From: Saccharopolyspora gloriosae | GTDB lineage: Bacteria; Actinomycetota; Actinomycetes; Mycobacteriales; Pseudonocardiaceae | Assembly: GCF_022828475.1 (NCBI RefSeq) | Contig: NZ_CP059557.1 | Location: forward strand, 6,557,470-6,621,469 | Reading direction: 5' to 3' | Length of the DNA stretch: 64,000 nt | Shown here: one piece after another, positions 5,547 through 62,152 of the stretch | How positions within the stretch are numbered: position 1 is the stretch's first letter | Layout of the letters: each line of letters begins with the position of its first letter | Program-made: the position numbers and the translations under genes | Notes under the pieces: model-generated | Seen by the model: the letters and a program-made list of their open reading frames with translations, nothing else | Databases searched by the model: none | What the model was told of the DNA's origin: nothing

Positions 5547-5708
5547 CTGTCAGCGGCGAAGCCGATGAGCGGCGACCACGCGCGCAGATCGACCACCGGC
5601 GGGTTCTCAGCTGTCTTCTCGCGAGGACGGCGTTTCCCCCGTGGCGGAGCCGCTCCGGAAGAAGATCCCGCGGCGAGAGGCTCACTGAGGACCCGCTACC
5701 CGGACACC
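5547..5708 (+). repeat. dispersed intergenic element, copy 1 (decayed arms)
   Basis: One of eight related loci here. It starts with TGTCAGCGGCGAAGCCG and ends with CTACCCGGACACC. The 17-nt arms (5606-5622 and 5673-5689) share outer sequences CTCAG and CTCGC with other copies but pair only partly. It lies between convergent genes. Confidence 0.75.
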
Positions 5709-5728
5709 CCGGCGAGCAGGGGGAACGC

Positions 5729-6859
5729 TCAGGCGGGAACGGGCCGCAGAACCGTGCTTCCGGAGCGGAGTGAGGCGACCTGACTGCGAGTGGCGATCCA
5801 CTTCGGGAGCCTGCCGACTCGTTGCAGCGGGGTGCTGCGCTGAGCGGAGGTGAACGCGGCCGTGCGGGAGACCTTGAGCACGCGGGAACGCCGTTCCTGC
5901 TCGTAGGCCCGCAGCGCCTCCTCCGGGGCGCCGTCCACGTCGGCGAGCCGGCGGGACAGCAGCCAGGCGTCCTCCAGCGTCTGGTTGGCGGCCTGCGCGA
6001 CCGCGGGCGGCATCGCGTGCACGGCGTCGCCGAGCAGCGTGCTGCGCGCCCCGCCCCAGACGCGGGGCACGACGTGGCGGATGTGCGGGAAGAAACCGAG
6101 GTCGTCGGGGCCGATCTCGGCGAGCAGCGGCTGCACCGGGTCCGCCCAGCCCGCGAACATGCGGCGCAGATCGCGGACGGTCAGCGGGTCGTCGCCTTCC
6201 CGCCACGGCAGGTCGAACCACCAGTGCAGCAGGCCGTCACCGGCGGGGATGAATCCGCAGTGCGCCACGCGGCCGGCGATGTTCACCGTCTGATGCCCGT
6301 GCGCCACCGGAAGATCGCTCCGGGTGAGTCCTTGCCAGCTGGCCCAGCCGGTCAGCCGCGCGGGGCTGCCGCCGAGCATTTCGCGGCGCACCACGGAACG
6401 CTGACCGTCCGCGCCGATCAGCACGTCGCCTTCGGCGCTGGTGCCGTCGGCGAAGTCCACGATGACCCGCTCGGGCGTTTCGGTGACGGCGATGCAGCGG
6501 CGGCCGAAGTGCAGCGCGTGCTCCGGCAGCGCGGCGGCGATCTTGCCGGTGAGCAGGCGGCGCGGCGTTTCGATGGTGGGCGAGCCGAGGCGTTCGGTGA
6601 CGTCGGCCAGGTCGGCTTCCCACAGCAGCCGCCCGGTGTCGGTGATCGATTTCAAGCTGTGGAGCGGGCGGCCGACGTCTTCGAGGGTGACTCCGAGCTG
6701 GCCCAGTGCGGCGGTGCCGTTGCTCCACACCGTCACCGCGGCGCCACCGTCGCGTAGCGCGTCCGCGTGTTCGAAGACCGAAACGTCGTGACCGGCGTCG
6801 ATGAGACCTTTGGCCACTGCGAGGCCACCGATCCCGGCTCCGATGACGAGAACGCGCAT
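5729..6859 (-). CDS. FAD-dependent monooxygenase (PHBH-like group A)
   Basis: Single-component flavoprotein monooxygenase of about 376 residues. It begins almost at the dinucleotide-binding motif VIGAGIGG; the DG motif (VLIGADGQRS) and the FAD-ribityl GD motif (TLLGDAVHAMPP) follow in order. Such enzymes hydroxylate small aromatic or tetracycline-like substrates with NAD(P)H and O2. The ATG at 6859 has AGGACGG 9 nt upstream; an in-frame ATG three codons earlier (6868) is possible but poorly spaced. The gene is divergent from the MetE-like gene. The substrate cannot be inferred. Confidence 0.9.
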   Translation of the reverse strand: MRVLVIGAGIGGLAVAKGLIDAGHDVSVFEHADALRDGGAAVTVWSNGTAALGQLGVTLEDVGRPLHSLKSITDTGRLLWEADLADVTERLGSPTIETPRRLLTGKIAAALPEHALHFGRRCIAVTETPERVIVDFADGTSAEGDVLIGADGQRSVVRREMLGGSPARLTGWASWQGLTRSDLPVAHGHQTVNIAGRVAHCGFIPAGDGLLHWWFDLPWREGDDPLTVRDLRRMFAGWADPVQPLLAEIGPDDLGFFPHIRHVVPRVWGGARSTLLGDAVHAMPPAVAQAANQTLEDAWLLSRRLADVDGAPEEALRAYEQERRSRVLKVSRTAAFTSAQRSTPLQRVGRLPKWIATRSQVASLRSGSTVLRPVPA

Positions 6860-7043
6860 CGTATCCATCCGTCCTGCGAAGCTGGCTGGCTCGCCGATTT
6901 TACCCAAGCGTCCCGCGGATCCGAGTTGTCGCTCCTCACATACAGTGATGAACATCTCTCGAATGGAGTAATGCGCGAGGGTAATCCACTGGGCGACAGC
7001 GGGGGTCGGCCACCCGATCCGCGGGGAAGTAGGTTGCCGAGGC

Positions 7044-8165
7044 ATGAGTCCTCGCGTATCCCCACCGTTCCGCGCCGACCACGTCGGAAGCCTGCTCCGT
7101 CCACCGAACCTGCTGGCCGCCCGCGACGAGTTCACCGCCGGACGCATCGATGCCGCCGAGCTGAAGCGGATCGAGGACGAGGCGATCACCGACGTCGTGG
7201 CCATGCAGGAAGAGGTCGGTCTCTCCAGCGCCACCGATGGCGAATTCCGCCGCGCCTCCTGGCACATGGACTTCCTGTACCAGTTGCGCGGCATCAACCG
7301 CTCCGAGGACTCGGCGCTGACCGTGAAGTTCCGCAACGCCGACGGGGACATCGAGTTCGCCACCCCCGACATGCGGATCAACGAGAAGATCGGCTTGGAC
7401 CACACGATCTTCGAAGACGCGTTCAAGGCGCTCGCGGACCGCACCAGGACGGCCACGCCGAAGCTCACCATCCCCTCGCCGGGGATGACGCTGTACCGCG
7501 GGGGTCGCGCCTCGATCGACCCGGAGGTGTACCCGGATCTGGACGAGTTCCGCGCCGACCTCGCCGCCGCCTACCGCGCCGAGGTGCACGCGCTGGCCGG
7601 GCTGGGCTGCCACTACCTGCAGCTCGACGACACGAGCCTCGCCTACTTGAACGACCCGAAGCAGCGCGAGCAGCTGGCGGCGCGCGGCGACGACGCCGAG
7701 CACGAGCACCTGCGGACCATCGAGCTGATCAACGCCTCGATCCGGGACCGGCCCGCGTCGATGGCGGTGACCACGCACCTGTGCCGGGGGAATTACCGCT
7801 CGTCCTGGGTGGCCGAGGGCGGCTACGACTTCGTCGCCGAAGCCCTGTTCGGCGGGCTCGACGTGGACGGGTTCTTCCTGGAATTCGACGACGCTCGCTC
7901 CGGCGGGTTCGCGCCGCTGCGCTTCGTGCCGAAGGACAAGCACGTCGTGCTCGGGTTGGTGACCACCAAGAGCGGTGAGCTGGAGTCCGCCGACGACCTC
8001 AAGCGGCGCATCGACGAAGCGTCCCGCTACATCGACCTGGACCAGCTCTGCTTGTCACCGCAGTGCGGCTTCGCCTCCACCAAGGAGGGCAACGCCCTCA
8101 CCTACGAACAGGAAGTCGCGAAACTGCGCCTGGTCGTGCAAACCGCTCAGGAGGTCTGGGGCTGA
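7044..8165 (+). CDS. MetE-like vitamin-B12-independent methionine synthase family protein
   Basis: 373-residue protein matching the C-terminal catalytic half of cobalamin-independent methionine synthase (YxjG/YxjH type). The predicted Zn ligands are H245 and C247 in THLCRGNYR, E280 in FLEFDD and C341 in SPQCGFAS. The N-terminal RADHVGSLLRP segment is also typical. Single-domain members are thought to transfer a methyl group to a thiol such as homocysteine, but donors differ from classical MetE. The ATG follows a weak purine stretch. It is divergently transcribed from the FAD monooxygenase. No B12 or SAM riboswitch was recognised upstream. Confidence 0.9.
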   Translation: MSPRVSPPFRADHVGSLLRPPNLLAARDEFTAGRIDAAELKRIEDEAITDVVAMQEEVGLSSATDGEFRRASWHMDFLYQLRGINRSEDSALTVKFRNADGDIEFATPDMRINEKIGLDHTIFEDAFKALADRTRTATPKLTIPSPGMTLYRGGRASIDPEVYPDLDEFRADLAAAYRAEVHALAGLGCHYLQLDDTSLAYLNDPKQREQLAARGDDAEHEHLRTIELINASIRDRPASMAVTTHLCRGNYRSSWVAEGGYDFVAEALFGGLDVDGFFLEFDDARSGGFAPLRFVPKDKHVVLGLVTTKSGELESADDLKRRIDEASRYIDLDQLCLSPQCGFASTKEGNALTYEQEVAKLRLVVQTAQEVWG

Positions 8166-8203
8166 ACACAGCCGACGAGGTTCCCCTGCGCGGAAGGACC
8201 AGC

Positions 8204-8404
8204 TCAGGCGGCGGATTCCAGGAAACGGCCCGCTACCAGGCCGGGCTCCTCGTTGCCGTCGAACCGGACCCACAGCACTGGGCCGTCGAAGACCTCGGGA
8301 AGTCCCGATGCCGTCTCCACCACCGTGCCGACCTGATCGCGGAACCGGCCGAACGAGGCACGCACCCGGGTGCCAGGCTCCAGCGGACTCGATGACTGCT
8401 CCAT
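8204..8404 (-). CDS. small hypothetical protein with KOW/SH3-like look
   Basis: 66-residue protein. The core (PGTRVRASFGRF, then VGTVVE, then LWVRFDGNEE) resembles a small beta-barrel with alternating hydrophobic strands, like KOW/SH3-type modules, but no family is recognised with confidence. The start is uncertain: the ATG at 8404 lacks a clear ribosome binding site, and in-frame upstream starts exist (to 8548). The plausible fold comes entirely from the part after 8404. It is convergent with the MetE-like gene, 38 bp away. Confidence 0.5.
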   Translation of the reverse strand: MEQSSSPLEPGTRVRASFGRFRDQVGTVVETASGLPEVFDGPVLWVRFDGNEEPGLVAGRFLESAA

Positions 8405-8587
8405 GAGGGAGGACGTTACGTGCCGTCGCAGCGGAACGGAAAACCGCGTCCGAGTGACGTGCATATGAATACCGTGACCTGCGGTATCGGTCTCGCTCAC
8501 CGGCTCATTGCGGGCAAAATGAGCCCGTTCAGTGATTGACGTCACCATAACCGCTGGTAGAAGCGTTGCGAATGGAAAGGGGCGCGG

Positions 8588-9208
8588 GTGCGCACAATCC
8601 GGCGATCAGGCGAATTCGAGCTGGAGATCAAGCGGTCCCGGTTCCTGTGCGCACTCGCCCGCGTCGAGTCGGAGGAGCAGGCGCGGGAATTCATCGCGCG
8701 CCGCCGCAAGCTGCACCACGAGGCGCGGCACCACTGTTCGGCTTACGTGCTGGGTCCGGATGGGCGAACTCAGCGCTCCAGCGATGACGGGGAGCCCGCG
8801 GGCACGGCGGGGGTTCCGATGCTGGAGGTGCTGCGGCACAACGAGATCACTCGCACGGTCGCCGTGGTCTCGCGGTACTTCGGCGGCACGCTGCTCGGCG
8901 CGGGCGGACTGGTGCGCGCCTACGGCAACGCGGTGTCGGCGGCGCTGGAGCACGTGGGCCTCGCGGAGCTGCGCCCCATGCGGCTCGTGTCGACCACTGT
9001 GGACTACCTGCTCGCGGGGAAGCTGGAGAACGACCTGCGCTCCAAGGGATTCACTGTGTCCGATGTGGACTATTCGGAGTCGGTTCGGTTCGTGGTGCGG
9101 GTCCCGGAGGGCGAGCTGGAGGAGTTCGACGTGTGGCTCGCCGAGAACACCAACGGGGCGGCCGAAGCCGTCCGCGGCGACCTCGTCCACACCGAGGCCC
9201 CGATCTGA
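8588..9208 (+). CDS. YigZ/IMPACT family protein (UPF0029)
   Basis: 206-residue member of the YigZ family. The conserved segment SRFLCALARVESEEQA, the FSAYVLG-like HHCSAYVLG, SDDGEPAGTAG and RYFGGTLLGAGGLVRAYG are all present, covering the N-terminal UPF0029 fold, followed by the ferredoxin-like C-terminal domain. A role connected to translation or ribosome-bound factors has been suggested for the family, but the function is not established. GTG start with GAAAGGGG about 8 nt upstream. Only 4 bp separate it from the convergent TetR gene. Confidence 0.92.
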   Translation: MRTIRRSGEFELEIKRSRFLCALARVESEEQAREFIARRRKLHHEARHHCSAYVLGPDGRTQRSSDDGEPAGTAGVPMLEVLRHNEITRTVAVVSRYFGGTLLGAGGLVRAYGNAVSAALEHVGLAELRPMRLVSTTVDYLLAGKLENDLRSKGFTVSDVDYSESVRFVVRVPEGELEEFDVWLAENTNGAAEAVRGDLVHTEAPI

Positions 9209-9212
9209 TCGG

Positions 9213-9830
9213 TCAGCAGGCGAAGACGCGGTCCAGGGCGTGGTCGATCATCGCCACGGAGTCCGCCTCGCCGTGATGGCCGAGCAGCAGGCCGATGGAG
9301 AGGCCGTCGGGCACGGCGAGCAGGATCCGGGCCTCCATCCACACGTCGACCCCGGCGGCGATCTCCCCGGCTTCCTGCGCGCCGCGCAGCAGGTCGGTGA
9401 TCCACTGCTCCAGTTGCGGCCACCATTCCCGGTACAGCGCGGCGAGGTCCGGTTCGGCGAGCGCGCGCACGAAGAACGCGATCGTGACGAGGTACTCCTG
9501 CCGGCTTTCCGTTGACAGCGCGAGCATTTCGACCAGCACCGCCCGCACCACCGTCCGCGCGGAGTGCGGTTCGTCCGTCGCCTCGATCCGGGCGCGGATG
9601 CGTTCGGCGGCACGATCGTTCACATAGCCGGCCGCGTACTGCAGCATCTGCTCCTTCGTGCGGAAGTAGTGCTGCACGGACCCCATGGAGATCCCGGCTT
9701 CGGCGGCGACGTCGCGCAGGTTGACGGCCTCCATACCGCCTCTGCCCGCCAGCCGCAGCAGCGCTTCGGCGATCTGCTTGCGCCGCTGCTCGTGATCGAC
9801 CTGCTTGGGCACGCTCCACCTCTTTTTCAT
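9213..9830 (-). CDS. TetR family transcriptional regulator
   Basis: 205-residue TetR repressor. The N-terminal helix-turn-helix (about residues 10-55, with VNLRDVAAEAGISMGSVQHYF) is canonical; the C-terminal ligand domain is AcrR-like. The ATG at 9830 is chosen because the DNA-binding domain follows at the usual distance; in-frame upstream codons would run across the operator. It faces the DUF418 gene with a 76-bp divergent region holding two matching palindromes, so it probably represses both itself and that gene. Confidence 0.9.
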   Translation of the reverse strand: MKKRWSVPKQVDHEQRRKQIAEALLRLAGRGGMEAVNLRDVAAEAGISMGSVQHYFRTKEQMLQYAAGYVNDRAAERIRARIEATDEPHSARTVVRAVLVEMLALSTESRQEYLVTIAFFVRALAEPDLAALYREWWPQLEQWITDLLRGAQEAGEIAAGVDVWMEARILLAVPDGLSIGLLLGHHGEADSVAMIDHALDRVFAC

Positions 9831-9879
9831 GCAGATGCATTGCAAACGCTTTCTCGGCGCGTTTACCATGCGCCTGCAT
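9829..9879. promoter_or_regulatory. paired operator-like palindromes between tetR and the DUF418 gene
   Basis: ATGCAGATGCAT (9829-9840) and ATGCGCCTGCAT (9868-9879) share half-sites ATGC/GCAT and lie 39 bp apart centre to centre, about four helical turns. Such pairs are typical TetR operators. The first overlaps the tetR start codon. Confidence 0.6.
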
Positions 9880-9906
9880 TATAAAACCGAAGTCCTGGGG
9901 GACGAC

Positions 9907-11040
9907 ATGACGACCACTCGACCCGCGCCCACCGGCAGCCGAATAGGCGCCCTCGACGTCGTGCGCGGCGTGGCCATCCTCGGCACCTTCGCCTCCAACG
10001 TCTGAATCTTCACCGACCCGGCCGGGCCGACCGGCCTGCTCAGCGGCGACGGCACCATCGCGTCGCTGCTGCTGTTCCTGTCCAACGGGAAGTTCCTGGC
10101 GCTGCTCACGCTCATGTTCGGCGTCGGCCTCGAACTCCAGTACCGCTCGGCGCGACGCCGCGGAGCCCGCTGGCCCGGCTGGTACCTGTGGCGCGCGGCG
10201 CTGCTGTTCGTCGAGGGCGCGTTGCACTACGTGCTGATCTTCGAGTTCGACGTGCTGATGAGCTACGCGGTGACCTCGGTGATCGTCGCCTACCTGATCG
10301 GCCGCAGCGATCGCGCCGTGCGCGGCTGGATCATCGGGTGCGCAGCGGTGCACGCGCTGGCGATGACGCTGGGCACGGCCGCGCTGCTGGCGTCGAACGA
10401 CTCAATGTCCGGACCGGGATCGGCGCTGTTCACCGACGGCACCTATCTGGAGCAGGTCGGTGAGCGGCTGACCGGGTTCGCCGTGTACCGGCTCGAAGCG
10501 CTGTTCATCATCCCGATGTCCATCGCGATGTTCCTGATCGGCTCACGGCTGCGCCGAGCGGGCGTGTTCGAAGCGGACGCGCGCGGGAGGCGGCTGCGCA
10601 ACCGGCTGATGGTGGCCGGGCTCGGCGTGGCGCTCCCGCTGAACCTGCTCACCACGCTGGGCGGAGGGCAGTGGTTCCTGATCGACCGCTACGTGCTGCC
10701 ACCGGTCGTCGCGCTCGGGCTGCTCGGGCTCATCACGACCGTCGTGCTGGGACGGACCGCCGCGCCCGGACCGCTGCGGGTCGGGATCACCGCGGTCGGC
10801 CGCACCGCGCTGTCCGGCTACGTGGCGCAGAACCTGCTCGCCGCGATCCTGTGCTATGGCTGGGGATTCGGGCTCGCCGCCCGGCTCGACGAGTACCGGC
10901 CGTGGTGGCCCATCGGCCTGTGGGCGGTGCTGTGCGCGACCCTGATGCCGCTGGCGACGTGGTGGCTGCGCCGCTTCACCCGCGGCCCCCTGGAGCTGGC
11001 GTGGCACTGGGCCTACCAGGCTCCCCAACGCCGAACCTGA
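9907..11040 (+). pseudogene. DUF418 membrane protein gene interrupted by an in-frame TGA
   Basis: Continuous frame of 378 codons with one stop (TGA at 10003-10005) after 32 residues. The sense before it (GALDVVRGVAILGTFASNV) and after it (IFTDPAGPTG, then GKFLALLTLMFGVGLELQ) forms the normal YeiB/DUF418 N-terminus, where Trp (TGG) would fit the stop position; a single G-to-A change explains it. The rest has about eight membrane helices and the C-terminal DUF418 block. Translation could restart at ATG 10114, losing the first 69 codons. It is divergent from its likely TetR repressor. It may be a true nonsense mutation or a base-call error. Confidence 0.8.
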
Positions 11041-11142
11041 GGTGAACGCCTCCTTCGCCCGGCCCCACCGGACGAACGGGCCGTTCACTGCACTGACGGC
11101 ACCGGGTGAACGTCCCCTTCGACCGGACGAACGGGCCGTTCG
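11041..11142. repeat. two-copy direct repeat with palindromic core
   Basis: A unit containing GGTGAACG, then CCTTCG or CCCTTCG, then CCGGACGAACGGGCCGTTC occurs at 11041-11086 and again at 11106-11142. Each ends in the palindrome GAACGGGCCGTTC. It lies between convergent genes and may act as a bidirectional terminator. Confidence 0.55.
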
Positions 11143-11155
11143 CCCGGATCGGGCG

Positions 11156-11794: not shown

Positions 11795-11862
11795 CCACCC
11801 TCCCCGTTCGGTCCCACTCCCATGATCACCCACGAACCGGGGACGCGGAGGGCGAACCGCGG

Positions 11863-24047: not shown

Positions 24048-24091
24048 CTCTGACCTGCGATGGTGGGGCGCCTGGGGATCGAACCCAGAAC
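24048..24091. repeat. att-like direct repeat, distal copy (partial tRNA-Lys 3' end)
   Basis: Forty-four bases identical to 25458-25501, covering the T-arm, acceptor 3' strand and CCA of the tRNA-Lys gene plus 13 downstream bases. A partial tRNA copy at this distance is the signature of site-specific integration into a tRNA gene. Confidence 0.75.
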
Positions 24092-25457: not shown

Positions 25458-25501
25458 CTCTGACCTGCGATGGTGGGGCGCCTGGGGATCGAACCCAGAA
25501 C
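25458..25501. repeat. att-like direct repeat, tRNA-proximal copy
   Basis: Second copy of the 44-bp identity, overlapping the 3' end of the intact tRNA-Lys gene. With the copy at 24048-24091 it brackets a 1.45-kb island that lacks an integrase gene. Confidence 0.75.
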
Positions 25502-25546
25502 CCACGGATTAAAAGTCCGTTGCTCTGCCAGTTGAGCTAACGCCCC
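25471..25546 (-). tRNA. tRNA-Lys (anticodon UUU)
   Basis: The minus strand folds as a full cloverleaf: 7-bp acceptor (GGGGCGU pairing with GCGCCCC including one G-U), D-arm GCUC/GAGC, anticodon stem ACGGA/UCCGU with loop CUUUUAA (anticodon UUU), a variable loop, T-arm CUGGG-UUCGAUC-CCCAG, discriminator A and an encoded CCA (25471-25473). Its 3' part is the integration target duplicated at 24048-24091. Confidence 0.95.
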
Positions 25547-33863: not shown

Positions 33864-34030
33864 GGTGTCTTGTCAGCGGCGAAGCCGATGAGCAGTGACC
33901 AGCTAGAGCAAGACGACCACCGGCGGGTTCTCAGCGGCTTCCTCGCGAGGACAGCCATTTCGCTGTGTAGGGAGCTACATGAGAAATGGATCCCGCAGCG
34001 AGGAAGCCGCTGAGGTTCCGCTGAGCGACC
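33864..34030 (+). repeat. dispersed intergenic element, copy 2 (perfect 17-bp arms)
   Basis: Starts GGTGTCTTGTCAGCGGCGAA. The inner arms CTCAGCGGCTTCCTCGC (33930-33946) and GCGAGGAAGCCGCTGAG (33998-34014) are perfectly complementary. It lies between the convergent XRE and pstB genes; its end replaces the usual CCCGGACACC. Confidence 0.8.
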
Positions 34031-34056
34031 AGCTACGCAGGCCGTTCAAAGGAGCG

Positions 34057-34833
34057 TCAGCCGAAGCGGCCCGAGATGTAGTCCTCGGTCGCTTTTTGAC
34101 TGGGGTTGGAGAAGATCCGGCCGGTCTCGTCGATCTCGACGAGTTCGCCCGGCTCGCCCACGGCCCGCAGGTTGAAGAACGCGGTCTGGTCGCTGACCCG
34201 CGCCGCCTGCTGCATGTTGTGGGTGACGATGACGATCGTGTACTCCTGCTTCAGCGTGGAGATCAGGTCCTCGATCGCCAGCGTGGAGATCGGGTCCAGC
34301 GCCGAGCACGGCTCGTCCATCAGCAGCACGTCCGGCTCCACCGCGATAGCGCGGGCGATGCACAGCCGCTGCTGCTGACCGCCGGAGAGGCCGCCGCCGG
34401 GCTTGCCCAGCCGGTCCTTGACCTCTTCCCACAGGTTCGCGCCGCGCAGCGCCCGCTCGGCGACCTCGTCGAGGCGCTTCTTGTTCTTCTCCCCGGCGAG
34501 CTTCAGCCCCGCCACCACGTTGTCCCGGATGGACATCGTGGGGAACGGGTTCGGCCGCTGGAACACCATGCCGATGGTGCGGCGGACCTGCACCGGGTCG
34601 ACCTGGGCGCCGTAGATGTCCTCGCCGTCGATGAGCACCTTGCCCTCGACGCGAGCACCGGCGATGACTTCGTGCATCCGGTTCAGCGAACGCAGCACGG
34701 TCGACTTGCCACAGCCCGAGGGGCCGATGAACGCGGTGACGCTGCGAGCCGGAACCTGCAAGGTCACGTCCTGCACGGCGTGGAACTTGCCGTAGTACAG
34801 GTTGAGGTCCTTGATATCGAGACGCTTGGCCAT
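34057..34833 (-). CDS. pstB: phosphate ABC transporter ATP-binding protein
   Basis: 258-residue cytoplasmic ATPase of the high-affinity phosphate importer PstSCAB. Walker [10 protein letters not shown] (about 38-46), the Q-loop [13 protein letters not shown] specific for PstB, signature [14 protein letters not shown], Walker [14 protein letters not shown] and the switch His in [11 protein letters not shown] are all intact. It is the last gene of pstS-pstC-pstA-pstB, 10 bp after pstA. A dispersed repeat and the XRE terminator separate it from the convergent gene downstream. Confidence 0.98.
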
Positions 34834-39155: not shown

Positions 39156-39301
39156 GAAGCAGACGTTACCGATCCACCACCCCGACGCGACACATGACGA
39201 AGTCGATAGAAGTCCGAACGCGGACGCGGCTGGGGAGAGCACCGGCCCGCCGCATCAGAGCTCCGGCGGTCGCGTGTGACGGCGGCTTCATCGTTCGGGG
39301 G

Positions 39302-39432
39302 CTTGTCAGCGGCGAAGCCGCTGAGCAGTGACCACGTGAGCAGACCCGACCACCTCGCGAGGACAGGCCCAGTAGGGAGCTGCTTGAAAATGGGAACCCG
39401 CAGCGAGAAGGCCGCTGAGGTTCAGCTACCCG
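39302..39432 (+). repeat. dispersed intergenic element, copy 3 (left arm deleted)
   Basis: Starts CTTGTCAGCGGCGAAGCCG and ends TTCAGCTACCCGAG. About 22 bp including most of the left arm is missing (CCGACCAC runs directly into CTCGCGAGGAC), while the right arm GCGAGAAGGCCGCTGAG remains. It lies between mshD and glnR. Confidence 0.75.
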
Positions 39433-39457
39433 AGCCGCTCCGCGGCAAGACCGGCGC

Positions 39458-40198
39458 TCAGCTGTGCGAGGCGATGATCGCTTCCGCTTCGGCGACGGCG
39501 GTCGCCTCGGTGCGCGGCTGCGCCTGGCCGGGGCGGGACGGGCGGACGAACTTGTAGCCGACGTTGCGCACGGTCCCGATCATCGAGTCGTACTCGGCGC
39601 CGAGCTTGGCGCGCAGCCGGCGCACGTGCACGTCGACCGTGCGGGTGCCGCCGAAGAAGTCGTAGCCCCACACCTCCTGGAGCAGCTGCGCGCGGGTGAA
39701 CACCCGGCCTGCGTGCTGCGCCAAGTACTTGAGCAGCTCGAACTCCTTGTAGGTGAGTTCCAGCGCCCGACCCTTCAGCCGCGCCGTGTAGGTCGCCTCC
39801 TCGATGACCAGATCACCGACCGACAGCGAACCGTCCGAAGCCGCGCTCTCACTGGTGCGGCGGGTAGTGAGCAGCCGCATCCGGGCGTCCACCTCGGCCG
39901 GGCCGCTGGTCGGCAGCAGGATGTCGTCCACGCCCCACTCGGCGCTGATCGTGACGAGACCGCCCTCGTTCACGATGGCGATCACCGGGGCATCGCCGGA
40001 GGCGAGCACGCGACACAAGTCCCGTGCGCCCGCCAGATCGGTGCGGGCGTCGACGAGCACCACGTCGTGGGTTCCGGCGGAGAGGATGGCTCCGGGGTCG
40101 GGAGGCAGCACGCGCACCCGGTGCGGCAGCAGGGCCAGTGCGGGCAGTGCTGATTCGCCGTTCTGGTCGCTGGTCAACAGCAGCAGTTCGGAACTCAT
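39458..40198 (-). CDS. glnR: OmpR-type nitrogen regulator GlnR
   Basis: 246-residue orphan response regulator controlling glutamine synthetase, ammonium transport and nitrogen assimilation in actinomycetes. Receiver domain 1-120 ([23 protein letters not shown]) and a winged-helix C-terminal domain ([20 protein letters not shown], then [19 protein letters not shown] and [16 protein letters not shown]). The segments [17 protein letters not shown] and [17 protein letters not shown] are specific for GlnR rather than PhoP-like regulators. No partner kinase gene is adjacent, as usual for GlnR. GGGAGG lies 7 nt before the ATG. Confidence 0.95.
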
Positions 40199-44352: not shown

Positions 44353-44658
44353 ATGAGCCTGGACGGATGCGGTGCGCCGCAGCAGACTTCGACCGCCGTC
44401 GCCGAGGACACCGATCAGATCGTCGTGACCGGCAAGGTGCGTTCCGGTGCGGCGCCGGTCGGCGGCGCGTTCGTGCGGCTGCTGGACGCGACGGGTGAGT
44501 TCACCGCGGAGGTCGTGTCCTCCGCGGAGGGCGACTTCCGGTTCTACGCCGCGCCCGGATCGTGGACGGTGCGCGCGCTGCACCGCGACGGCAAGGGCCA
44601 GGCGGACGTCTCCGCCTCCGGACCGGGCGTCCACCCCGTGGACATCGCCGTGGCTTGA
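44353..44658 (+). CDS. DUF1416 domain protein
   Basis: 101 residues. A short N-terminal CGAPQQ segment precedes a transthyretin-like beta-sandwich (TGKVRSGAAPVGGAFVRLLD, then AEGDFRFYAAPGSWTVRALH). The family almost always follows sseA, as here, so it probably assists thiosulfate sulfur transfer; the mechanism is unknown. ATG 44353 has GGGAGC at the optimal distance; GTG 44347 overlapping the sseA stop is also possible. Confidence 0.92.
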   Translation: MSLDGCGAPQQTSTAVAEDTDQIVVTGKVRSGAAPVGGAFVRLLDATGEFTAEVVSSAEGDFRFYAAPGSWTVRALHRDGKGQADVSASGPGVHPVDIAVA

Positions 44659-44680
44659 TCCTCGCGGTGGGATCTGCGCG

Positions 44681-44848
44681 GGTGTCCGGGTAGCGGAACC
44701 TCAGGTGCTGCCTCGCTGCGGGATCGATTTCCCAAGTGGCTCCGCCACGAGGGAGATTGCTGTCCTCGCGAGGAAGCACCTGAGAACCCGCCGGTGGTCA
44801 TCTTGCTCTGGTGGTCGCTGCTCAGCGGCTTCGCCGCTGACAAGACAC
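44681..44848 (-). repeat. dispersed intergenic element, copy 4 (covarying arms)
   Basis: Minus orientation. Ends are GGTGTCCGGGTAGCGG and GCTGACAAGACAC. The arms at 44700-44716 and 44768-44784 pair in 16 of 17 positions, but their central bases differ from copy 2. It lies between the convergent DUF1416 and methyltransferase genes. Confidence 0.8.
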
Positions 44849-44880
44849 GGATGAGAGACCGCTCGCAGGAGTCCTCAGCG

Positions 44881-47454: not shown

Positions 47455-47561
47455 ACCCGCACACTAAGCGCCCGCGTCCGACCGCGTCCCGCACGGTAGC
47501 CCCCCCTGCCTGCACCAAAGCGACCAACGAAGCAACCTTGCTCCCCAGCGAAGCCATGCCC

Positions 47562-47688
47562 TGGGCGGGCGAAGCCACGCCTGCCTCGCGGCCGAAGGCC
47601 GTGCCTCGCGGCGAAGCCGTGCAGTGGGCGGGCGAAGCCACGCCTGCTTTGCGGCGATAGCCGTGCCTGTATGTGCGAAGCACATAGC
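47562..47688. repeat. 63-bp tandem unit with GAA-triloop hairpins
   Basis: TGGGCGGGCGAAGCCACGCC recurs with a 63-bp period (47562 and 47625). Each unit has short perfect stems closed by a GAA loop: GGCC-GAA-GGCC, CGGC-GAA-GCCG and ATGTGC-GAA-GCACAT. It occupies the divergent region upstream of pabC and fur. Confidence 0.65.
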
Positions 47689-47694
47689 CCACGT

Positions 47695-47820
47695 CAAGAA
47701 GCCGACCACCCGCGGGTTCTCAGTTGGTCTCTCGCGAGGACAGCTTTTTCCCTCGTGGCGGAGCCACTAGGGAAAAAGATCCCGCAGCGAGAGACCAACT
47801 GAGGTTCCGCCACCCGACCC
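47695..47820 (+). repeat. dispersed intergenic element, copy 5 (covarying perfect arms)
   Basis: Left end missing. Arms CTCAGTTGGTCTCTCGC (47719-47735) and GCGAGAGACCAACTGAG (47787-47803) are perfectly complementary though they differ from copy 2 at six positions. A nested CTTTTTCCCT/AGGGAAAAAG hairpin lies between. Confidence 0.85.
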
Positions 47821-47907
47821 CCCAAGCAAAACGACAGGTCGTCCACGCAAGAAGCAGTAAGGCATACGATCGGGGTGGCAAGCCCCGTCCGAGCACAGGA
47901 GCCAGCA

Positions 47908-53645: not shown

Positions 53646-53938
53646 GCCTCCGCGCTCCTCGTGAGCGCCCGCAGATCATCGGAAGAAATCCCGGCGGCCG
53701 GGAATTCCGGGCAGGGCCGGTCCGTTGTACTGGGTGGCCGGTGTGCGCGTGCCCCCGGGCTCCATCACGAGCCTGCAGGGAATACCGTTCGGCTGGAGCC
53801 TTGCAGCGCCACCCGCCGAGAGGCGGCCCGCACACCGGCCCTCGGCTTCTCCCAACGCTTGAGCACCCTCGCGAACGATCTTCGCCGAGCTTGAGCACCT
53901 TCGCGGAATGGTCTTCGCAGCGTGCTCTCTTGATCACT
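53646..53938. other. non-coding stretch downstream of the candidate RNA
   Basis: No gene is supported. The open frames here lack ribosome binding sites and domains. The area leads into the dispersed repeat at 53939. Confidence 0.4.
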
Positions 53939-54106
53939 GTCCTGTCAGCGGCGAAGCGCTGAGCAGTGACCAGCTTGATCAAGACGTCCACCGGCGGGTT
54001 CTCAGCGGCTTCCTCGCGAGGACGGCTTTCCCCCTCGTGGCTGAACCACTCGGGAAAATGGATCCCGCAGCGAGGAAGCCGCTGAGGTTCCGCTACCCGG
54101 ACGCCC
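53939..54106 (+). repeat. dispersed intergenic element, copy 6 (perfect 17-bp arms)
   Basis: Starts GTCCTGTCAGCGGCGAAGC and ends CTACCCGGACGCC. Arms at 54001-54017 and 54070-54086 are identical to those of copy 2 and perfectly complementary. It lies in the convergent region between DUF3073/candidate RNA and purM. Confidence 0.85.
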
Positions 54107-54133
54107 ACGCAGGCCGTCCAGGCTGGAACAAGA

Positions 54134-55246
54134 TCAGAACCGAGGGTGATTCCCGCGGATGACCACGCGCTGGTCCTCGGCGGCGTCCTCGACCGTCGGC
54201 TGCTTCGCGACCTCACCCAGCACCCATGCGGGCACGTGCCGCGCGGTGAGCACCGCGAGCGCCCGGTCGACGTCCTCGGCGGTGACGACGGCGACCATGC
54301 CGACGCCCATGTTGAAGGTGCTTTCCATTTCCTCGGTCTCGACCCGGCCGCGCTGCGCGATGAGCCGGAACACCGGGTCCGGGGTCCACGTGCCGCGATC
54401 CAGCACCGCGGTCAGGCCCGCCGGGACGACCCGCGCCAGGTTCGCGGCCAGGCCGCCTCCGGTGACGTGGGCGAACGTCCGCACCTCGGTTTCGGCGGCC
54501 AACGCCAGGCAGTCCTTGGCGTAGATCCGCGTCGGCTCCAGCAACTGTTCGCCGAGGGTGCGGCCGAACTCCTCCACGTGTCCCGTGAGCGGCATCCGGG
54601 CGAGCTCCAGCAGCACGTGCCGGGCCAGCGAGTAGCCGTTGGAGTGCAGGCCCGAGGAGCCCATGCCGATCACCACGTCGCCGGGCCGGACCTTGTCCGG
54701 TCCGAGCATCGCGCCGGCCTCCACGACGCCGACACCGGTCGCGGAGATGTCGTAGTCACCCGGCGCCATCATGCCGGGGTGTTCGGCGGTCTCCCCGCCG
54801 AGCAGCGCGCAACCGGCCTGCACGCAGCCTTCGGCCACGCCCTTGACCAGGTCCGCGATCCGCTCCGGGACGACCTTGCCGACGGCGATGTAGTCCTGCA
54901 GGAACAGCGGCTCCGCCCCGCACACCACGAGGTCGTCGACGACCATCGCGACCAGGTCGATGCCGACGGTGTCGTGCTTGTCGAGCGCCTGGGCCACGGC
55001 GAGCTTGGTGCCGACACCGTCGGTGGAGGAGGCCAGCACCGGTTCGGTCCACCGGTCCAGCTTCAACTGGAACAGGCCGGCGAAGCCGCCGAGCGAACCC
55101 AGCACTTCCGGCCTGCTCGCCCGCTTCGCCCAGGGCAGCATCTGCTGCACGGCCTCGTCGCCCGCTTCGATGCTCACCCCCGCGTTCGCGTAGGTGGCCT
55201 TCTCCGCTTCGGCGTCTTTCGCCCCTGCGAGCAGGTCTTCGGACAC
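54134..55246 (-). CDS. purM: phosphoribosylformylglycinamidine cyclo-ligase (AIR synthetase)
   Basis: Fifth step of purine synthesis, converting FGAM to AIR with ATP. About 370 residues: TYANAGVSIEAGDEAVQQML, the conserved STDGVGTKLAVAQ, GGETAEHPGMM and SSGLHSNGYSLAR motifs, and a C-terminal PurM domain with GMVAVV. GTG 55246 was chosen because GGAG lies 6 nt upstream; an in-frame GTG at 55258 and further upstream codons also exist. It is downstream of purF (250 bp gap) on the same strand. Confidence 0.96.
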   Translation of the reverse strand: MSEDLLAGAKDAEAEKATYANAGVSIEAGDEAVQQMLPWAKRASRPEVLGSLGGFAGLFQLKLDRWTEPVLASSTDGVGTKLAVAQALDKHDTVGIDLVAMVVDDLVVCGAEPLFLQDYIAVGKVVPERIADLVKGVAEGCVQAGCALLGGETAEHPGMMAPGDYDISATGVGVVEAGAMLGPDKVRPGDVVIGMGSSGLHSNGYSLARHVLLELARMPLTGHVEEFGRTLGEQLLEPTRIYAKDCLALAAETEVRTFAHVTGGGLAANLARVVPAGLTAVLDRGTWTPDPVFRLIAQRGRVETEEMESTFNMGVGMVAVVTAEDVDRALAVLTARHVPAWVLGEVAKQPTVEDAAEDQRVVIRGNHPRF

Positions 55247-57098: not shown

Positions 57099-57302
57099 CG
57101 AGAACTCCCTGGATGACGGAGTCGGGCTTACGCCTCAGTGTAAACGGGACCCGAAGCCCGGATGACCGGCCGCCTCCGCAAGCGCTCCGCACGGCCCCGG
57201 CTCACCAGGTGTTTCGGTGTCCGTTCCGGGCCGATGTGAAGCCGGTCATCGCTCCGCTCGTCGCCCTGCACGGCCGTCCGGTCACCTTGCGCAGGTGTTC
57301 GC

Positions 57303-57683: not shown

Positions 57684-57843
57684 GCGCTCCACCTTAGAAC
57701 GCCGGTCGGAGCGCCTTCATCGTCACGGTCGCGGGCGGCCGGGTCCGCCGCTCACCGTGACCTTCCGATCGTCATGGTGCGGGTCAGGCGGTTCTCCGCG
57801 ACTCGGCTTCAGGAACCCCCGCAAGATGATCTTCTGATCCTCA

Positions 57844-57920
57844 CCTTGTCAGCGGCGGAGCCGATGAGCGGCGACCGGCTTGGGCGAACGACCACCGGCG
57901 GATTCTCAGCGGCTCGCGCT
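57844..57920 (+). repeat. dispersed intergenic element, copy 7 (left half only)
   Basis: CTTGTCAGCGGCGGAGCCGATGAG up to CTCAGCGGCTCGCGC matches the first half of the family; the right arm is lost. It lies just past the stop codon of the LuxR gene. Confidence 0.65.
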
Positions 57921-57930
57921 GAAAGGTCGA

Positions 57931-58761
57931 TCAGAGCCAGCCGAGTTTCACCGCTTGCATGCCCGCTTGGAATCGGGTTTCGACGCCGAGGCGGGCGATC
58001 AGTTCCCGGACGCGGCGGTGCGCGGTGCGGGCGCTGAAGCCCATCAGCCTCCCGATGGTGTCGTCGGTCGCGCCGGAAGCCAGCAGCGACAGGATCCAGC
58101 GCTCCTCCTCGGAAGGCTGGTCTTCGCCGGTGAGCCGTTCCTGCTCGCAGGTGAACGGTGCCGCGAAGCGCCACAGGTCCTCGAAGATGCGCATCACCGC
58201 GACGAGCATGGCGGAGCTGCGGATCACGACCGCGCTCTCCACGGTCTGGTCGGTGGCGGTCAGCGGCAGCAGCGCCACCTCGTTGTCCACCAGGATCATC
58301 TTCGTCGGGGCCACGTGGATCACCCGGGCCTGCTCGCCGAGCGCCACCAGCCTGGAGGTCAGCTCCAGCTGTGGTGGCCGGGCGAGCGCCGAGCGGTCGT
58401 AGAGCACCTGGTAGTTGACGCCTTCGGCGAGTTTGCGCGATTCCAGCGAGTCCAGTGAGCCGGTGGCGGCGTACGGCGGTTTCGCGACGCCCTGCACGAG
58501 TTCCGTGGCGCTGCGCTGCAGTTCGTAGGCCGCCCAGCCGACACGGCGGGCGCCGTGCACGACCTGCAGCACTCCGCCCGCGCCGCCGGCTTGGGCCTTC
58601 GCGGCTCGCGCCACGGAGACGACGGCCTCTCGCGCTTCCACTTGGGATCGGACGGCTCGTTCGGTGTCCGTCGTCGTTCCGGCCCGGGCCTGGCCGGGCA
58701 CGCCCCGCTCAGACGAGGTCTGCTGTGCGCGCTCAGGCGCCTCGGTGTATCCGGATAACAC
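57931..58761 (-). CDS. LuxR-type helix-turn-helix regulator
   Basis: 276 residues. The N-terminal 200 form an unassigned helical/sensor region (LESRKLAEGVNYQVLYDRSA and ALGEQARVIHVAPTKMILVD), like the phosphodiesterase-like sensor region of TrmB/SgrR-type regulators. The C-terminal HTH (LSLLASGATDDTIGRLMGFS and ARTAHRRVRELIARLGVETR) is LuxR/GerE type. The ligand and targets are unknown. GTG start. Beside it is the secreted protease gene on the same strand, separated by 280 bp. Confidence 0.85.
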   Translation of the reverse strand: MLSGYTEAPERAQQTSSERGVPGQARAGTTTDTERAVRSQVEAREAVVSVARAAKAQAGGAGGVLQVVHGARRVGWAAYELQRSATELVQGVAKPPYAATGSLDSLESRKLAEGVNYQVLYDRSALARPPQLELTSRLVALGEQARVIHVAPTKMILVDNEVALLPLTATDQTVESAVVIRSSAMLVAVMRIFEDLWRFAAPFTCEQERLTGEDQPSEEERWILSLLASGATDDTIGRLMGFSARTAHRRVRELIARLGVETRFQAGMQAVKLGWL

Positions 58762-59042
58762 GGCACACCCTTTCGTGACGTGCCTTCACAGGCTCAGTCG
58801 GACCATGGTTGATCTTGGTCTGGACCAGTTCCGCGACAGGCAGCGAGCGGCCCCCTCGATCAAGAACGTAACCATCTTGAGACCGTCCCGGGAACCCACT
58901 TTTGCAGTAGAGCGGTTCAACCTTTGTAGAGCACCATTCGGCGGCGCCGCAGCGTCGGCCGAATGCCCCAGCGACCGCACGAACGCGCCGAGCCCTGCCC
59001 CGAATCAACGAGGCAGGACCCGGCACTGTCACGTACTTCGGA

Positions 59043-60227
59043 TCACAGCTCGCCGGTCTGGAGCAGATCGGCGATCGTGTCCGCCGGAGCGCCCGCGATC
59101 ACGCCGGTAGCGGCACCGGACTGCAGCCCGGTGATCACGTCCGCGGGCGCGGCGTCCGGAGTCGCCTCCAGGAACAGCGCGCCCACACCCGCGACGTGCG
59201 GGCTGGCCATCGAGGTACCGCTGAACGTGGCCGTCCCGCCGCCGGGCGCGAGCGAAACGATGTCCACGCCGGGCGCATAACCTTCCACGGTCGAACCGAA
59301 GTTGGTGAACTCGGCCGAACCGTCGTTGTCATCGGAGGCCGCCGTGGTGAACACGCCCTCCGCGCCGGCCGGGGAGACGTTCTCCGCGTCCTGCGACTCG
59401 TTGCCCGCCGCGACGGCCAGGAACACGCCCTGGTCGACCAGGCCGGTGGCTGCCTCGTCCAGCGACGGGTCCTTGCTGCCGCCCAGCGACAGGTTCGCCA
59501 CCGCCGGGCCGTTCGCGTCCTGAGCGACCCAGTCCAGACCGGCGATGATGTCGGCCGTCGTGCCGCTGCCGTTGTCGTCGAGGACCTTCACCCCGACCAG
59601 TTCCGCTTCCGTCGCCACGCCGTAGGTCGCCGAACCGATGGTGCCCGCCACGTGCGTGCCGTGGCCGTGCCCGTCGCTGCCGTCTCCGCCGGTGGCGTCG
59701 AAGCCGATCGACGCCCGGCCACCGAAGTCCGCGTGATCGGGCGCGATGCCGGTGTCGACGATGTAGGCCGTCACGCCCGCACCGGTCCCGTTGGGGGCGT
59801 AGGTGTCGTCGAGCGGTAAGGCCGGCTGGTCGATCCGGTCCAGCCCCCAGGAGCCCACTGCGGCGGGCGCCTGCGGCTGCTCGACCTGGACGTGGAAGTT
59901 CTGCGACACGCCTTCCACGTCGTGGTTCGCGCGCACCGCCTGCAGCTGCTCGGGGCTCAGCGTCGCCGAGAACCCGTTCAGGCTGTGCGTGTAGAGGTGT
60001 TCGGTGGGCACACCCAGCTCCGCGGCGACCGCGGCGGCGTTCTCACCGTCCTTCAGGTTGACGATGTAGGAATCGGCGGTGCCGTCGGCGGACAGCACCC
60101 CCGTTTCCGGATGCAGGGTCAGCGGTGCGAGCGTCGGTGCCGCGAATGCGGGCGCACCGGCGAACACGAGTGCGGCGGCGGTGATTCCGGCGCCTGCCAA
60201 CCTGCCTCGGGAGAGCATTCTTTTCAT
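59043..60227 (-). CDS. secreted S8 serine protease (subtilase, proteinase K-like)
   Basis: 394 residues, exported. Signal peptide 1-29 (cleavage after AFA), an I9 propeptide (about 50-118, DSYIVNLKDGENAAAVAAEL, then LNGFSATLSPEQLQ), and the catalytic domain with D158 (YIVDTG), H192 (GHGTHVAG), N276 (AAGNES) and S339 (GTSMASPHV). The propeptide chaperones folding and is then removed. ATG 60227 was chosen because the signal peptide begins there; the longer frame has no function. No C-terminal extra domain. Extracellular nutrition is the likely role. Confidence 0.96.
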   Translation of the reverse strand: MKRMLSRGRLAGAGITAAALVFAGAPAFAAPTLAPLTLHPETGVLSADGTADSYIVNLKDGENAAAVAAELGVPTEHLYTHSLNGFSATLSPEQLQAVRANHDVEGVSQNFHVQVEQPQAPAAVGSWGLDRIDQPALPLDDTYAPNGTGAGVTAYIVDTGIAPDHADFGGRASIGFDATGGDGSDGHGHGTHVAGTIGSATYGVATEAELVGVKVLDDNGSGTTADIIAGLDWVAQDANGPAVANLSLGGSKDPSLDEAATGLVDQGVFLAVAAGNESQDAENVSPAGAEGVFTTAASDDNDGSAEFTNFGSTVEGYAPGVDIVSLAPGGGTATFSGTSMASPHVAGVGALFLEATPDAAPADVITGLQSGAATGVIAGAPADTIADLLQTGEL

Positions 60228-60722
60228 GATCCCTCTTCCTTCAGTGCCATCCGGGTGGGGCCGGACGGCTTTCTGATGGTGCAAACCGAACGTAAACCAT
60301 GAAAACAAGCGAATAGACCCGGCTGGCGATTTGTCGCCAACCCCTTGCGCCGTGGATATGATGCCATTTCGAGTCTCTCCTGAAAATGGCCCTGATGTGC
60401 CTTCCACCTGCCGTTTTAGGGATCGAACATACTGCGGCACAGAGCGTTCACATTTTTTACCGAAGTTAGCCCGAGCGCCCGTACATACACCGGCGAGCGG
60501 ATGAGGTCGTGAACACGCAGCGCTCAGAATCGGCGGCTAAGGCCCTGCTCATCACTCCGATGGTGGCACAGAACAGGCAACGGGAAACGACACGGCAATC
60601 CTGGTCTCGGTCTCGTTCGGCCATTCGTGAAGGGCGCGGGAAAACGTCACCGCGCAATACCGGGGAGCCTTGCTCTTCTCAGCCCGTGGACGCGTCACAT
60701 TTCGCGGCGCGTCCGAATCCGG
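60228..60722. other. 495-bp intergenic region upstream of the protease gene
   Basis: No gene supported. Two inverted repeats stand out: TGGCGA-TTTG-TCGCCA (60324-60339), about 100 bp upstream of the protease start, and GCCATTT (60363-60369) with AAATGGC (60384-60390). Both are candidate operators or 5' untranslated hairpins of the minus-strand protease mRNA. Confidence 0.4.
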
Positions 60723-61175
60723 TCAGGTGGCCGCGACCCAGCGCCGCAGTTTCAGCCGCACGGCCTCGACGTACTCCGGCGGCAGTTCGCCCTGCTCGAC
60801 GGCCGCGACGGGCTCGTTCGCCCCCTGCGGCGCCGTCGCGGAATCGGCGGGGGTCACGCCGTATTCGATGCCGTAGTACAGGTACAGGGCGTGTTCCTGC
60901 TCCAGCATCAGATCGCCCTCGTCGAGCCGGACGTGCGGCGCCTGGCGCACCGTCTCCTTCAGCACCGAGACGGTCAGCGTGTCGCCGTCGAAGGCCGCAC
61001 CGTCGAGCGGTACGAAGCTCTCGTTGGTGCCGAACAGGCCGGTCTGCACGGTGATCCACGCCGGTTGCTCGGTGGTCTCGTCGAGGAACAGCTGCCCGAC
61101 GATCCCGATCCGATGCCCCGCCGGATCGAAGACCTCGCACCCGAACAGGTGCAGTGCTTCCCGCTGACCGATCAT
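60723..61175 (-). CDS. PRC-barrel domain protein
   Basis: 150 residues. N-terminal beta-barrel (LFGCEVFDPAGHRIGIVGQL and PAWITVQTGLFGTNESFVPL, with DLMLEQEHALYLYYGIEYGV at the C-side) resembles PRC-barrel proteins that bind RNA-processing or photosynthetic partners; the DUF2382-like stress tail is absent. ATG 61175, with GGGAGG about 10 nt upstream. It is divergent from the hypothetical gene at 61509. Confidence 0.85.
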   Translation of the reverse strand: MIGQREALHLFGCEVFDPAGHRIGIVGQLFLDETTEQPAWITVQTGLFGTNESFVPLDGAAFDGDTLTVSVLKETVRQAPHVRLDEGDLMLEQEHALYLYYGIEYGVTPADSATAPQGANEPVAAVEQGELPPEYVEAVRLKLRRWVAAT

Positions 61176-61508
61176 GCCCGACCGCCTCCCCGAACTCGCC
61201 GCTCGCCCAGTCTGCCCCGGCCGCGGCCGGACCGGCACCCCGGAAAGGTGCATCCGCGACCGGCCGCCTTGGTCCCGAACCACCGCCGGAACCCGTTGCG
61301 GCGGCGGGGAATCCGAACGCGCCGTGCGCGAGCCGCGCGGGTGTCCCACCTGGATGGACGGACCCGGCGCCCGCGCCACCCGGCACCGGCCGGTAGAACT
61401 GGCACGCTCACGGGTACACCTCGCACGGCCGAGGCGGGCGGATCGTTCGAAGATCGCGCCGTCGGCACCCGCGAGCTCCGCATCTCCCAGTCGAAGGACG
61501 CCAGCACC
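61176..61508. other. 333-bp intergenic region
   Basis: Divergent upstream region of the PRC-barrel gene and the hypothetical gene at 61509. It is GC-rich and carries no supported gene or clear operator. Confidence 0.35.
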
Positions 61509-62096
61509 ATGTCAGAGCAACCCGACCACCCCGGACCGCCGCCGATCACCGACGAGATGCGGGAGCAGGCCAGGCAGACTCCGAACAGCTGGCTCTACAT
61601 CGTCGACCCCGGCTACCAGGAGTCCGGGGACGACGTGCCGCCGGAAGGCGTCGTCGGCGCGTACCACATCGACGCCGACGGCGAGATCGATCCGGAGTTC
61701 CAGTACAACGACGAGTACGAGCCCTCGGACCTCACCTTCGCCCTGCCGGAACCGGTCAACGAGCTGGAGCGGGTGCTGCACCGCATCGCCACCGGCGAGG
61801 CGCCCGACACCGAGCTCGCCCCGGCGGTGCTGGCGGCCGAGGTGCTGATCTACGACCCGGAGAACGGCGCGGGCGAAGCGGCCGTGTACGTCGCCGAACT
61901 CGACGACGGCAGCCAGCTCGTTCCCGCGTGCACCTCGGTGGAGCGGGTTCCGGAGGGCTGGCCCGGTTCCCGCCGGGTGTCCGGCGCGGAGCTCCCGGAG
62001 CTGCTGGGCGGACTCGACCTGGGCCTGAACCTGGACGACTCGGTCCGCGCCGTCATCCCCCACCACGTCCTCAACGACGCCTCGTCACCGAACTAG
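61509..62096 (+). CDS. conserved hypothetical acidic protein
   Basis: 195 residues, strongly acidic, soluble. Recognisable stretches are ITDEMREQARQTPNSWLYIV, EGVVGAYHIDADGEIDPEF, PEPVNELERVLHRIATGEA and VYVAELDDGSQLVPACTSVE. The pattern of a repeated alpha/beta unit with ending QLVPACTS suggests a SseB/type VII secretion-associated relative, but I cannot confirm it. ATG start without a strong ribosome binding site. A terminator follows. Confidence 0.7.
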   Translation: MSEQPDHPGPPPITDEMREQARQTPNSWLYIVDPGYQESGDDVPPEGVVGAYHIDADGEIDPEFQYNDEYEPSDLTFALPEPVNELERVLHRIATGEAPDTELAPAVLAAEVLIYDPENGAGEAAVYVAELDDGSQLVPACTSVERVPEGWPGSRRVSGAELPELLGGLDLGLNLDDSVRAVIPHHVLNDASSPN

Positions 62097-62112
62097 GCAT
62101 GCCGTCGTTCCT

Positions 62113-62152
62113 GGTGTCCGGGTCTCATCGGCTCCGCTGCTGACAGGACACC
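62113..62152 (-). repeat. dispersed intergenic element, copy 8 (ends only)
   Basis: A 40-bp remnant with GGTGTCC and GGACACC as inverted ends and GCAGCGGAGCCGATGAG inside (minus strand). It corresponds to the two ends of the family joined, as expected from internal deletion. Confidence 0.65.

Follow-up and report, generated by a model that had tools for sequence, protein, structure and literature searches.

Integron attC sites are hairpins that combine a conserved fold with a variable sequence, lie after a stop codon and are folded on the antisense strand. The YPAL or RU-2 element of Yersinia is ~168 bp long, contains internal inverted repeats, lies in intergenic regions, is mobile as judged by filled and empty sites, with target duplications of 3-26 bp, and is expressed with upstream genes, according to the accessible part of its description (PMC2229807). 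REPs, in the accessible parts of the respective sources, are 20-40 bp long with a GTAG or CGTC tag, the GTAG type being associated with a Y1 transposase (PMC3733652), and 446 of the 4072 REPs predicted in E. coli lie within 15 nt of a stop codon (PMC12306157). Most miniature inverted-repeat transposable elements (MITEs) such as Correia, RUP and ERIC have terminal inverted repeats, TA ends and target duplications (accessible part of PMC2229807). Here we describe a 64,000-nucleotide stretch of Saccharopolyspora gloriosae (the window, G000:C1:6557470-6621469, in the single-contig 6.88 Mb genome G000), which contains members of an apparently undescribed family of ~175-base hairpin elements, of which an actinobacterial group has hundreds.

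The family is closest in kind to the YPAL/RU-2 and REP repeats, with which it shares size or stop-side location, but it has the defining features of none of the families tested. Like YPAL, it is of similar length, carries internal rather than terminal inverted repeats, is intergenic and shows filled and empty sites in relatives. In contrast, YPAL is enterobacterial and has target duplications, none of which is clear in the present family; the accessible part of the YPAL description also makes no mention of a fixed stop spacing, a covarying 7-bp word or conserved internal loops (PMC2229807). REP and BIME sequences likewise form hundreds of extragenic palindromes, some just beyond stops, whereas the present element is ~175 bp long with a 100-nt hairpin and no Y1 transposase was detected in G000. 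The likeness to attC covers the conserved fold, the variable sequence, the post-stop position and the folding of the antisense strand, but the present copies are dispersed singly with no cassette arrays, and chromosomal genes stay put when the element is absent; no attC end boxes were recognised by eye. The elements resemble Correia, RUP and ERIC in being short, non-coding, dispersed and non-autonomous. An earlier annotation made from the sequence alone (the first-pass annotation) had considered a MITE with short terminal inverted repeats, but the outer GGTGTC / GACACC repeats are weak in Saccharopolyspora and unseen in the other genera read, and 149 full copies revealed no clear target duplication; a classical MITE with distinct versions of both was not supported.

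No Rfam 15 family matched above its gathering score, and one hairpin used as the query had no match at E 0.001 in the sequenced phage or plasmid collections. We found no prior description naming the family in a search that covered the accessible parts of PMC3733652, PMC2229807, PMC2267715, PMC10969869 and PMC12306157, among others, with most subscription papers outside it; nothing on the family was found in the accessible part of an S. erythraea RNA-seq study (PMC3610266).

A dispersed hairpin family beside stop codons

From 30 copies aligned with their flanks, we derived the order of the parts from the gene outward: a spacer of ~10-30 nt after the stop, a short G-rich stretch, the hairpin P3 of ~100 nt, another G-rich stretch and a small tail hairpin rich in GC (in the orientation of the first-pass annotation, the tail hairpin, a linker and then the 100-nt P3). 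Starting from its GCGG/CCGC base, the P3 stem passes through a GTT/GTT step, CTCAG/CTGAG, a 7-bp word that varies and CTCGC/GCGAG; it continues with an asymmetric loop that hardly varies (GAGGACNGC / GATCCCGCA) and an upper stem that does. The base and the internal loops are invariant, while the 7-bp stretch varies freely yet stays paired. The element ends ~10 nt beyond CTACGCA. The tail hairpin is of two types, one reading TCAGCGGC GAA GCCGCTGA and the other with GTGCGAAGCAC and arrays of small hairpins. Three loci (L283, L285 and L295) have, beyond the hairpin and replacing the usual tail hairpin, a second short palindrome of the CGATTTC..GAAATCG kind. Direct repeats flanking P3 were rejected as more than a consensus feature: at least 8 nt were shared in 10 of 27 loci from other genera, where letter shuffles gave 1.1 but shuffling partners between loci gave 11.2, and in 19 of 138 loci of a Saccharopolyspora-centred set (3.9 letter-shuffled, 13.7 partner-shuffled).

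All eight pieces of the window that the first-pass annotation had listed contain the family sequence, six of them with the main hairpin and two as remnants, copy 7 having lost most of the hairpin and copy 8 retaining only the outer tail (Table 1). The view of a dispersed family without a transposase, with further copies elsewhere in the genome, was also supported. A contiguous 721 kb of G000 contains 50 copies (28 full), from which roughly 480 copies per genome are extrapolated, and the matching 732 kb of the relative G001 contains 45 (28 full). Covariance model R1, built from 51 sequences over 99 positions, gave at least 150 matches in G000, since all of the best 150 scored candidates matched. 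The proposed search beyond the genome extended the family to 53 of the 200 genomes in a family sample, where 13 of 46 genera carry it, a patchy spread, and to 8 of 150 genomes in an order sample, all of the same family. The genome collection used for these counts treats all its carriers as one family; NCBI taxonomy places Saccharopolyspora in Pseudonocardiaceae and Actinopolyspora in Actinopolysporaceae, and both genera, together with Halopolyspora, were among the matches listed in a pattern scan of named genomes. The carrier group includes antibiotic producers. Chance similarity was rejected, in view of fold energy relative to shuffles (copy 6, in the first-pass orientation, folds 6.2 standard deviations below dinucleotide shuffles) and of the covariation controls. 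Along the G000 contig, the region 2.45-4.42 Mb is sparse, with 18 of the best 150 matches in 4 of 14 equal bins, while elsewhere a single bin contains up to 18.

The elements are anchored on one side at the ends of coding sequences, a feature that the first-pass annotation missed, as it did the conserved internal loops and the strand preference described below. With genes called by a codon-usage caller trained on G000, the P3 side faces a stop in 40 of 46 G000 copies, 33 of them 4-29 bp away, and in 34 of 42 G001 copies, 31 of them 6-28 bp away; the 33 G000 copies, set against 628 called genes, mean that ~1 gene in 20 of the sampled part has an element within 30 bp of its stop. A larger placement set was assembled from loci L001-L179 and two long stretches with both neighbours readable, giving 215 copies, or 182 distinct ones after 33 likely duplicates were dropped. 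The hairpin-side end lies 0-35 bp from a stop codon in 122 of the 182 (144 of 215 before duplicate removal), compared with a mean of 38.6 and a maximum of 55 in 200 runs in which the copies were placed and turned at random within their own spacers. The opposite, tail-side end is equally near a stop in only 21 of the 182. Copies between tandem genes are oriented toward the stop in 62 of 92 cases, and in other genera a stop lies within 80 nt before the hairpin in 21 of 29. Another 42 copies face a start codon, 24 of them 20-80 bp upstream of it. The first-pass annotation had placed most copies between convergent genes, which holds for the stretch around the window (26 of 46) but not for the distinct copies at large (78 of 182); it is the adjacent stop codon, rather than the convergent arrangement, that counts. 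Relative to the direction of replication, element strands track gene strands.

Covariation, exchange between copies and the folded strand

We aligned 51 diverse hairpins with plain MAFFT (alignment A3) and assigned the structure ourselves. In this alignment 92.6% of cells pair and 18 pairs are changed on both sides, including 10 of the 17 long-helix pairs and all 6 upper-stem pairs, while the small apical helix is paired in only 67% of cells. The compensatory arm changes noticed in the first-pass annotation are evident here: 157 cells are doubly changed against 42.8 in shuffles, none of 500 shuffles reaches 157, and the covariation score is 0.278 compared with 0.105 when shuffled and 0.06-0.106 when the 3' partners are slid. 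The 17-bp arm versions in the window are also as it reported, with CTCAGCGGCTTCCTCGC in copies 2 and 6, CTCAGTTGGTCTCTCGC with a perfect partner in copy 5, and 16 of 17 positions paired in copy 4. The 7-bp word comes from a limited set, with 46 first-arm words in 181 parsed copies (some of them included twice), 120 of which are perfectly paired. The arms change together, and therefore the fold itself seems to be kept.

Paired changes could also arise by concerted evolution, in which copies swap entire hairpins or, at replication, one arm acts as the template for its partner, with no selection on pairing. The limited word set would fit such a process. Among same-site, same-orientation pairs in G000 and G001, the words differ in all 12 that are readable (2 of 14 were not fully readable), as copy exchange could produce; pairing is retained in these 12, none of which, one hybrid aside, has more than a single mismatch. 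In copy 4, G000 and G001 differ in paired stem positions and one linker, so that the arms differ yet match, and the surrounding spacer has diverged. Hybrids and flips do occur: 4 of 129 distinct arm pairs combine one arm from each of two common words, and 3 inner flips and 3 base flips stand against 153 normal hairpins. These flips, at L088, L105, L224, L062, L077 and L110, affect the inner part or the left base and apparently arose by exchange between arms.

The copy next to gatB helps to separate the two processes. In genus g56, the genomes G122 and G095 have one detected match each, in strict-filter searches with only 20 and 27 candidates scored, at a common site directly after the stop of gatB (NCBIfam equivalog). 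Their P3 hairpins differ at 4 of 100 sites, corresponding to two base pairs, both of which are compensated. Identity is 90% over the 120 bases before P3, mostly gatB, and averages 55% over the 150 columns that follow P3, of which the first ~40 (the tail) are nearly identical and the remainder unalignable. Because no donor copy was detected in either genome, the simplest reading is that pairing is selected in place, which appears to fit the gatB case better than copy exchange does; the two changes could also have arisen if one arm served in place as the template for its partner. Templating would, however, erase the internal loops, which are unpaired and nearly invariant, and the many one-step intermediates with strand-biased wobbles likewise argue against concerted evolution. 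We regard it as an improbable account of the family as a whole.

Half-way states can reveal which strand is folded, because a pair that forms a wobble when read on one strand reads as an A-C mismatch on its complement. In 42 distinct 7-bp pairings, a single pair departs from Watson-Crick; it is a wobble on the strand that runs toward the gene in 28 of them, on the gene-sense strand in 7 and on neither in 7. In 120 distinct 17-bp arm pairs, wobbles number 77 toward the gene and 35 gene-sense (56 and 33 once a single position, the source of 21 of the 77, is left out), and the GTT/GTT step is wobble-rich only on the toward-gene strand. The gene-sense strand is predicted to be the more stable in 67 of 260 hairpins. 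These asymmetries suggest that the strand running into the gene is likely the folded form, and support, from sequence comparison, the view that pairing is selected in place mainly on that strand. The first-pass annotation had left open whether pairing is selected or arms are copied in pairs; the gatB compensations and the 28 to 7 wobbles favour selection, and arm-arm exchange occurs but is rare.

The placement raises a different possibility, that of a 3' untranslated region (3'-UTR) element in which the gene-sense transcript folds P3 past the stop and either ends transcription or keeps 3' exonucleases off the mRNA, a role already suggested for REP and YPAL. The way in which copies are placed and oriented directly behind stop codons agrees with this, as does the single copy conserved after gatB; copies 2 and 4 lie between a stop and a native terminator-like hairpin, and the gene-sense folds are very stable: of the five window hairpins for which both strands were folded, three are more stable in gene sense. 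On the other hand, the wobbles of the 7-bp word fall 4 to 1 on the opposite strand, that strand is more stable in most of the 260 hairpins, and some copies are found ahead of start codons, in the opposite sense. A 3'-UTR role is thus possible but rather unlikely.

Gain, loss and a possible barrier function

Empty sites in the orthologous spacers of relatives, which the first-pass annotation had proposed to look for, do occur. Over the 721 kb, 40 of 46 G000 copies mapped collinearly to G001, 21 with a copy in the same spacer and 19 without; in the reverse direction 35 of 42 mapped, 23 with a copy and 12 without. At the site of copy 2, no copy was detected in six relatives (G001-G005 and G018), the gap being 16 bp in G003 and occupied by other DNA in G001 and G002. 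Copy 4 is common to G000 and G001 only and absent from G002-G005 and G018. The site of copy 7 contains a full copy in G001, a diverged copy in G002, the remnant in G000 and nothing in G003. Copies are thus gained or lost from one related species to the next, the pattern that mobile DNA would be expected to leave. The 21 same-spacer pairs comprise 14 in the same and 7 in opposite orientation; inversion of the element in place was rejected for the latter, as the clear cases adjoin the stops of different genes and several differ in tail type.

In the 149 full copies, target duplications of 5 and 6 bp are no more frequent than in shuffles and those of 8 bp occur in 2, compared with 1; a slight excess was seen at one offset (3 bp, 14 against null maxima of 9-10; 4 bp, 7 against 4-6). 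Y1 tyrosine transposase (PF01797) was not found in G000-G003 or G018 and is present in G004 and G005 (the control was positive in 5 of 14), and a RAYT-driven REP was rejected on this ground. Reverse transcriptase (RVT_1) was not detected in G000, G001, G003-G005 or G018, with one match in G002 and presence in 87 of 200 family genomes; a retron or other reverse-transcriptase-borne element was rejected, as RVT_1 was not detected in the window's genome. TnpB was not detected in G000-G003 and is present in G017, G018, G100 and G174, so a TnpB-linked omega RNA was rejected for G000-G003. In the search for an IS91-type HUH transposase, the control matched nowhere.

These data bear on whether the family might be a purely selfish single-strand DNA element, in which the toward-gene strand, folded as single-stranded DNA, is the substrate that a recombinase cuts and joins, with placement reflecting target choice and purging and the fold kept for mobility only. 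Presence and absence between species, the lack of a clear target duplication, the strand preference and the patchy spread would all be compatible with it. We consider it unlikely, given that searches of G000, G001 and G003 detected neither Y1 transposase nor reverse transcriptase nor TnpB, and that mobility alone leaves unexplained a lone copy conserved with compensation in two species.

Our best reading of the whole, held tentatively, is that the family is a non-autonomous, once or still mobile palindromic repeat that is kept at gene ends for its fold, perhaps as a transcription barrier. The toward-gene strand would fold in transcripts (or exposed DNA) arriving from outside the gene, and the element might act as a portable barrier at the edge of the gene, keeping antisense or stray transcription out; its spread would need machinery supplied in trans. 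A barrier against incoming transcription, which we infer from the sequences, would account for the stop-side and start-side placement and for the conservation of a lone copy.

Several observations weigh against this reading. Tandem gene pairs also carry copies, though little incoming transcription is expected there, and a strand-biased mutation process could mimic the wobble asymmetry, whose counts are of distinct sequences rather than independent events. The upper stem shows no such asymmetry (22 and 21), and three of the five window hairpins favour the gene-sense strand. The few candidates scored in G122 and G095 bear on their single-copy status, insertion and loss are distinguished by outgroups at a few sites only, and no mobilising enzyme was found among the Y1 transposases, reverse transcriptases and TnpB tested. 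By eye, no U-tract or T run, as a textbook U-tailed terminator would have, directly follows P3 in the consensus flanks on either side. A more far-reaching proposal is that these are a new kind of mobile element, in which strand-specific boundary hairpins home just past stops (less often upstream of genes) with machinery unlike the tested transposase families and are kept by the host as a block to incoming transcription; we think this doubtful.

If the fold does block incoming or antisense transcription, the family would offer hundreds of matched comparisons, with and without the element, of boundary function across species. The lone gatB copy is a clean case for separating function from mobility, and the fast, paired 7-bp word provides unusually rich data for separating pairing selection from repeat recombination.

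Window copies and neighbouring features

The neighbours of the window copies are ordinary genes (pstB, purM, a GlnR-type regulator, DUF1416 and an FAD-binding protein), and P3 starts 31-40 nt beyond a stop in five of six cases. The exception is copy 5, located between two divergent genes, with the start codon of one of them (47908) ~98 nt downstream. Arrays similar to the 57-nt units of copy 5 follow other copies of the second tail type. The native terminator-like hairpin near copy 2 is on the side away from the pstB-like gene, with copy 2 between the stop and that hairpin, and copy 4 is placed likewise between the DUF1416 stop and such a hairpin.

Table 1 Family members and an associated repeat in the window (window coordinates).
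Feature	Position	Strand	Description
Copy 1	5546..5709	+	Full length; P3 5599-5696; FAD-binding protein gene (minus) ends at 5729, 33 nt off
Copy 2	33864..34041	+	Full length; P3 33923-34022; stop of pstB-like gene (minus) at 34057, 35 nt off
Copy 3	39296..39443	+	P3 39350-39427, first arm mostly lost; stop of GlnR-type regulator gene (minus) at 39458
Copy 4	44674..44849	-	Full length; P3 44692-44791; follows stop of DUF1416 gene (plus) at 44658
57-nt unit of small GC hairpins, two copies	47536..47655	+	At outer end of copy 5
Copy 5	47676..47828	+	Second tail type; P3 47712-47810
Copy 6	53938..54111	+	Full length; P3 53994-54094; purM (minus) stop at 54134, 40 nt off
Copy 7	57845..57920	+	Remnant: tail hairpin and start of first arm; stop at 57931, 10 bp off
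Copy 8	62113..62152	-	Remnant: tail hairpin and outer end; 16 bp beyond stop at 62096 (plus)

Copy 1 lies at the edge of a segment (4735-5725) that spans ~990 bp in G000 and only ~20 bp in G001. Another intergenic segment, at 53683-53844, is conserved with 94-95% identity in G001-G003, 88% in G004-G005 and 87% over part of its length in G018, and has no Rfam match. The flanking genes are the same throughout, but the segment has one orientation in G000 and the inverse one in all six relatives examined; it is possibly a small RNA gene flipped in place. Finally, two identical 44-nt repeats occur at 24048-24091 and 25458-25501, the second overlapping the end of tRNA-Lys (25471-25546, minus); the pair looks like an attachment-site duplication flanking ~1.4 kb.

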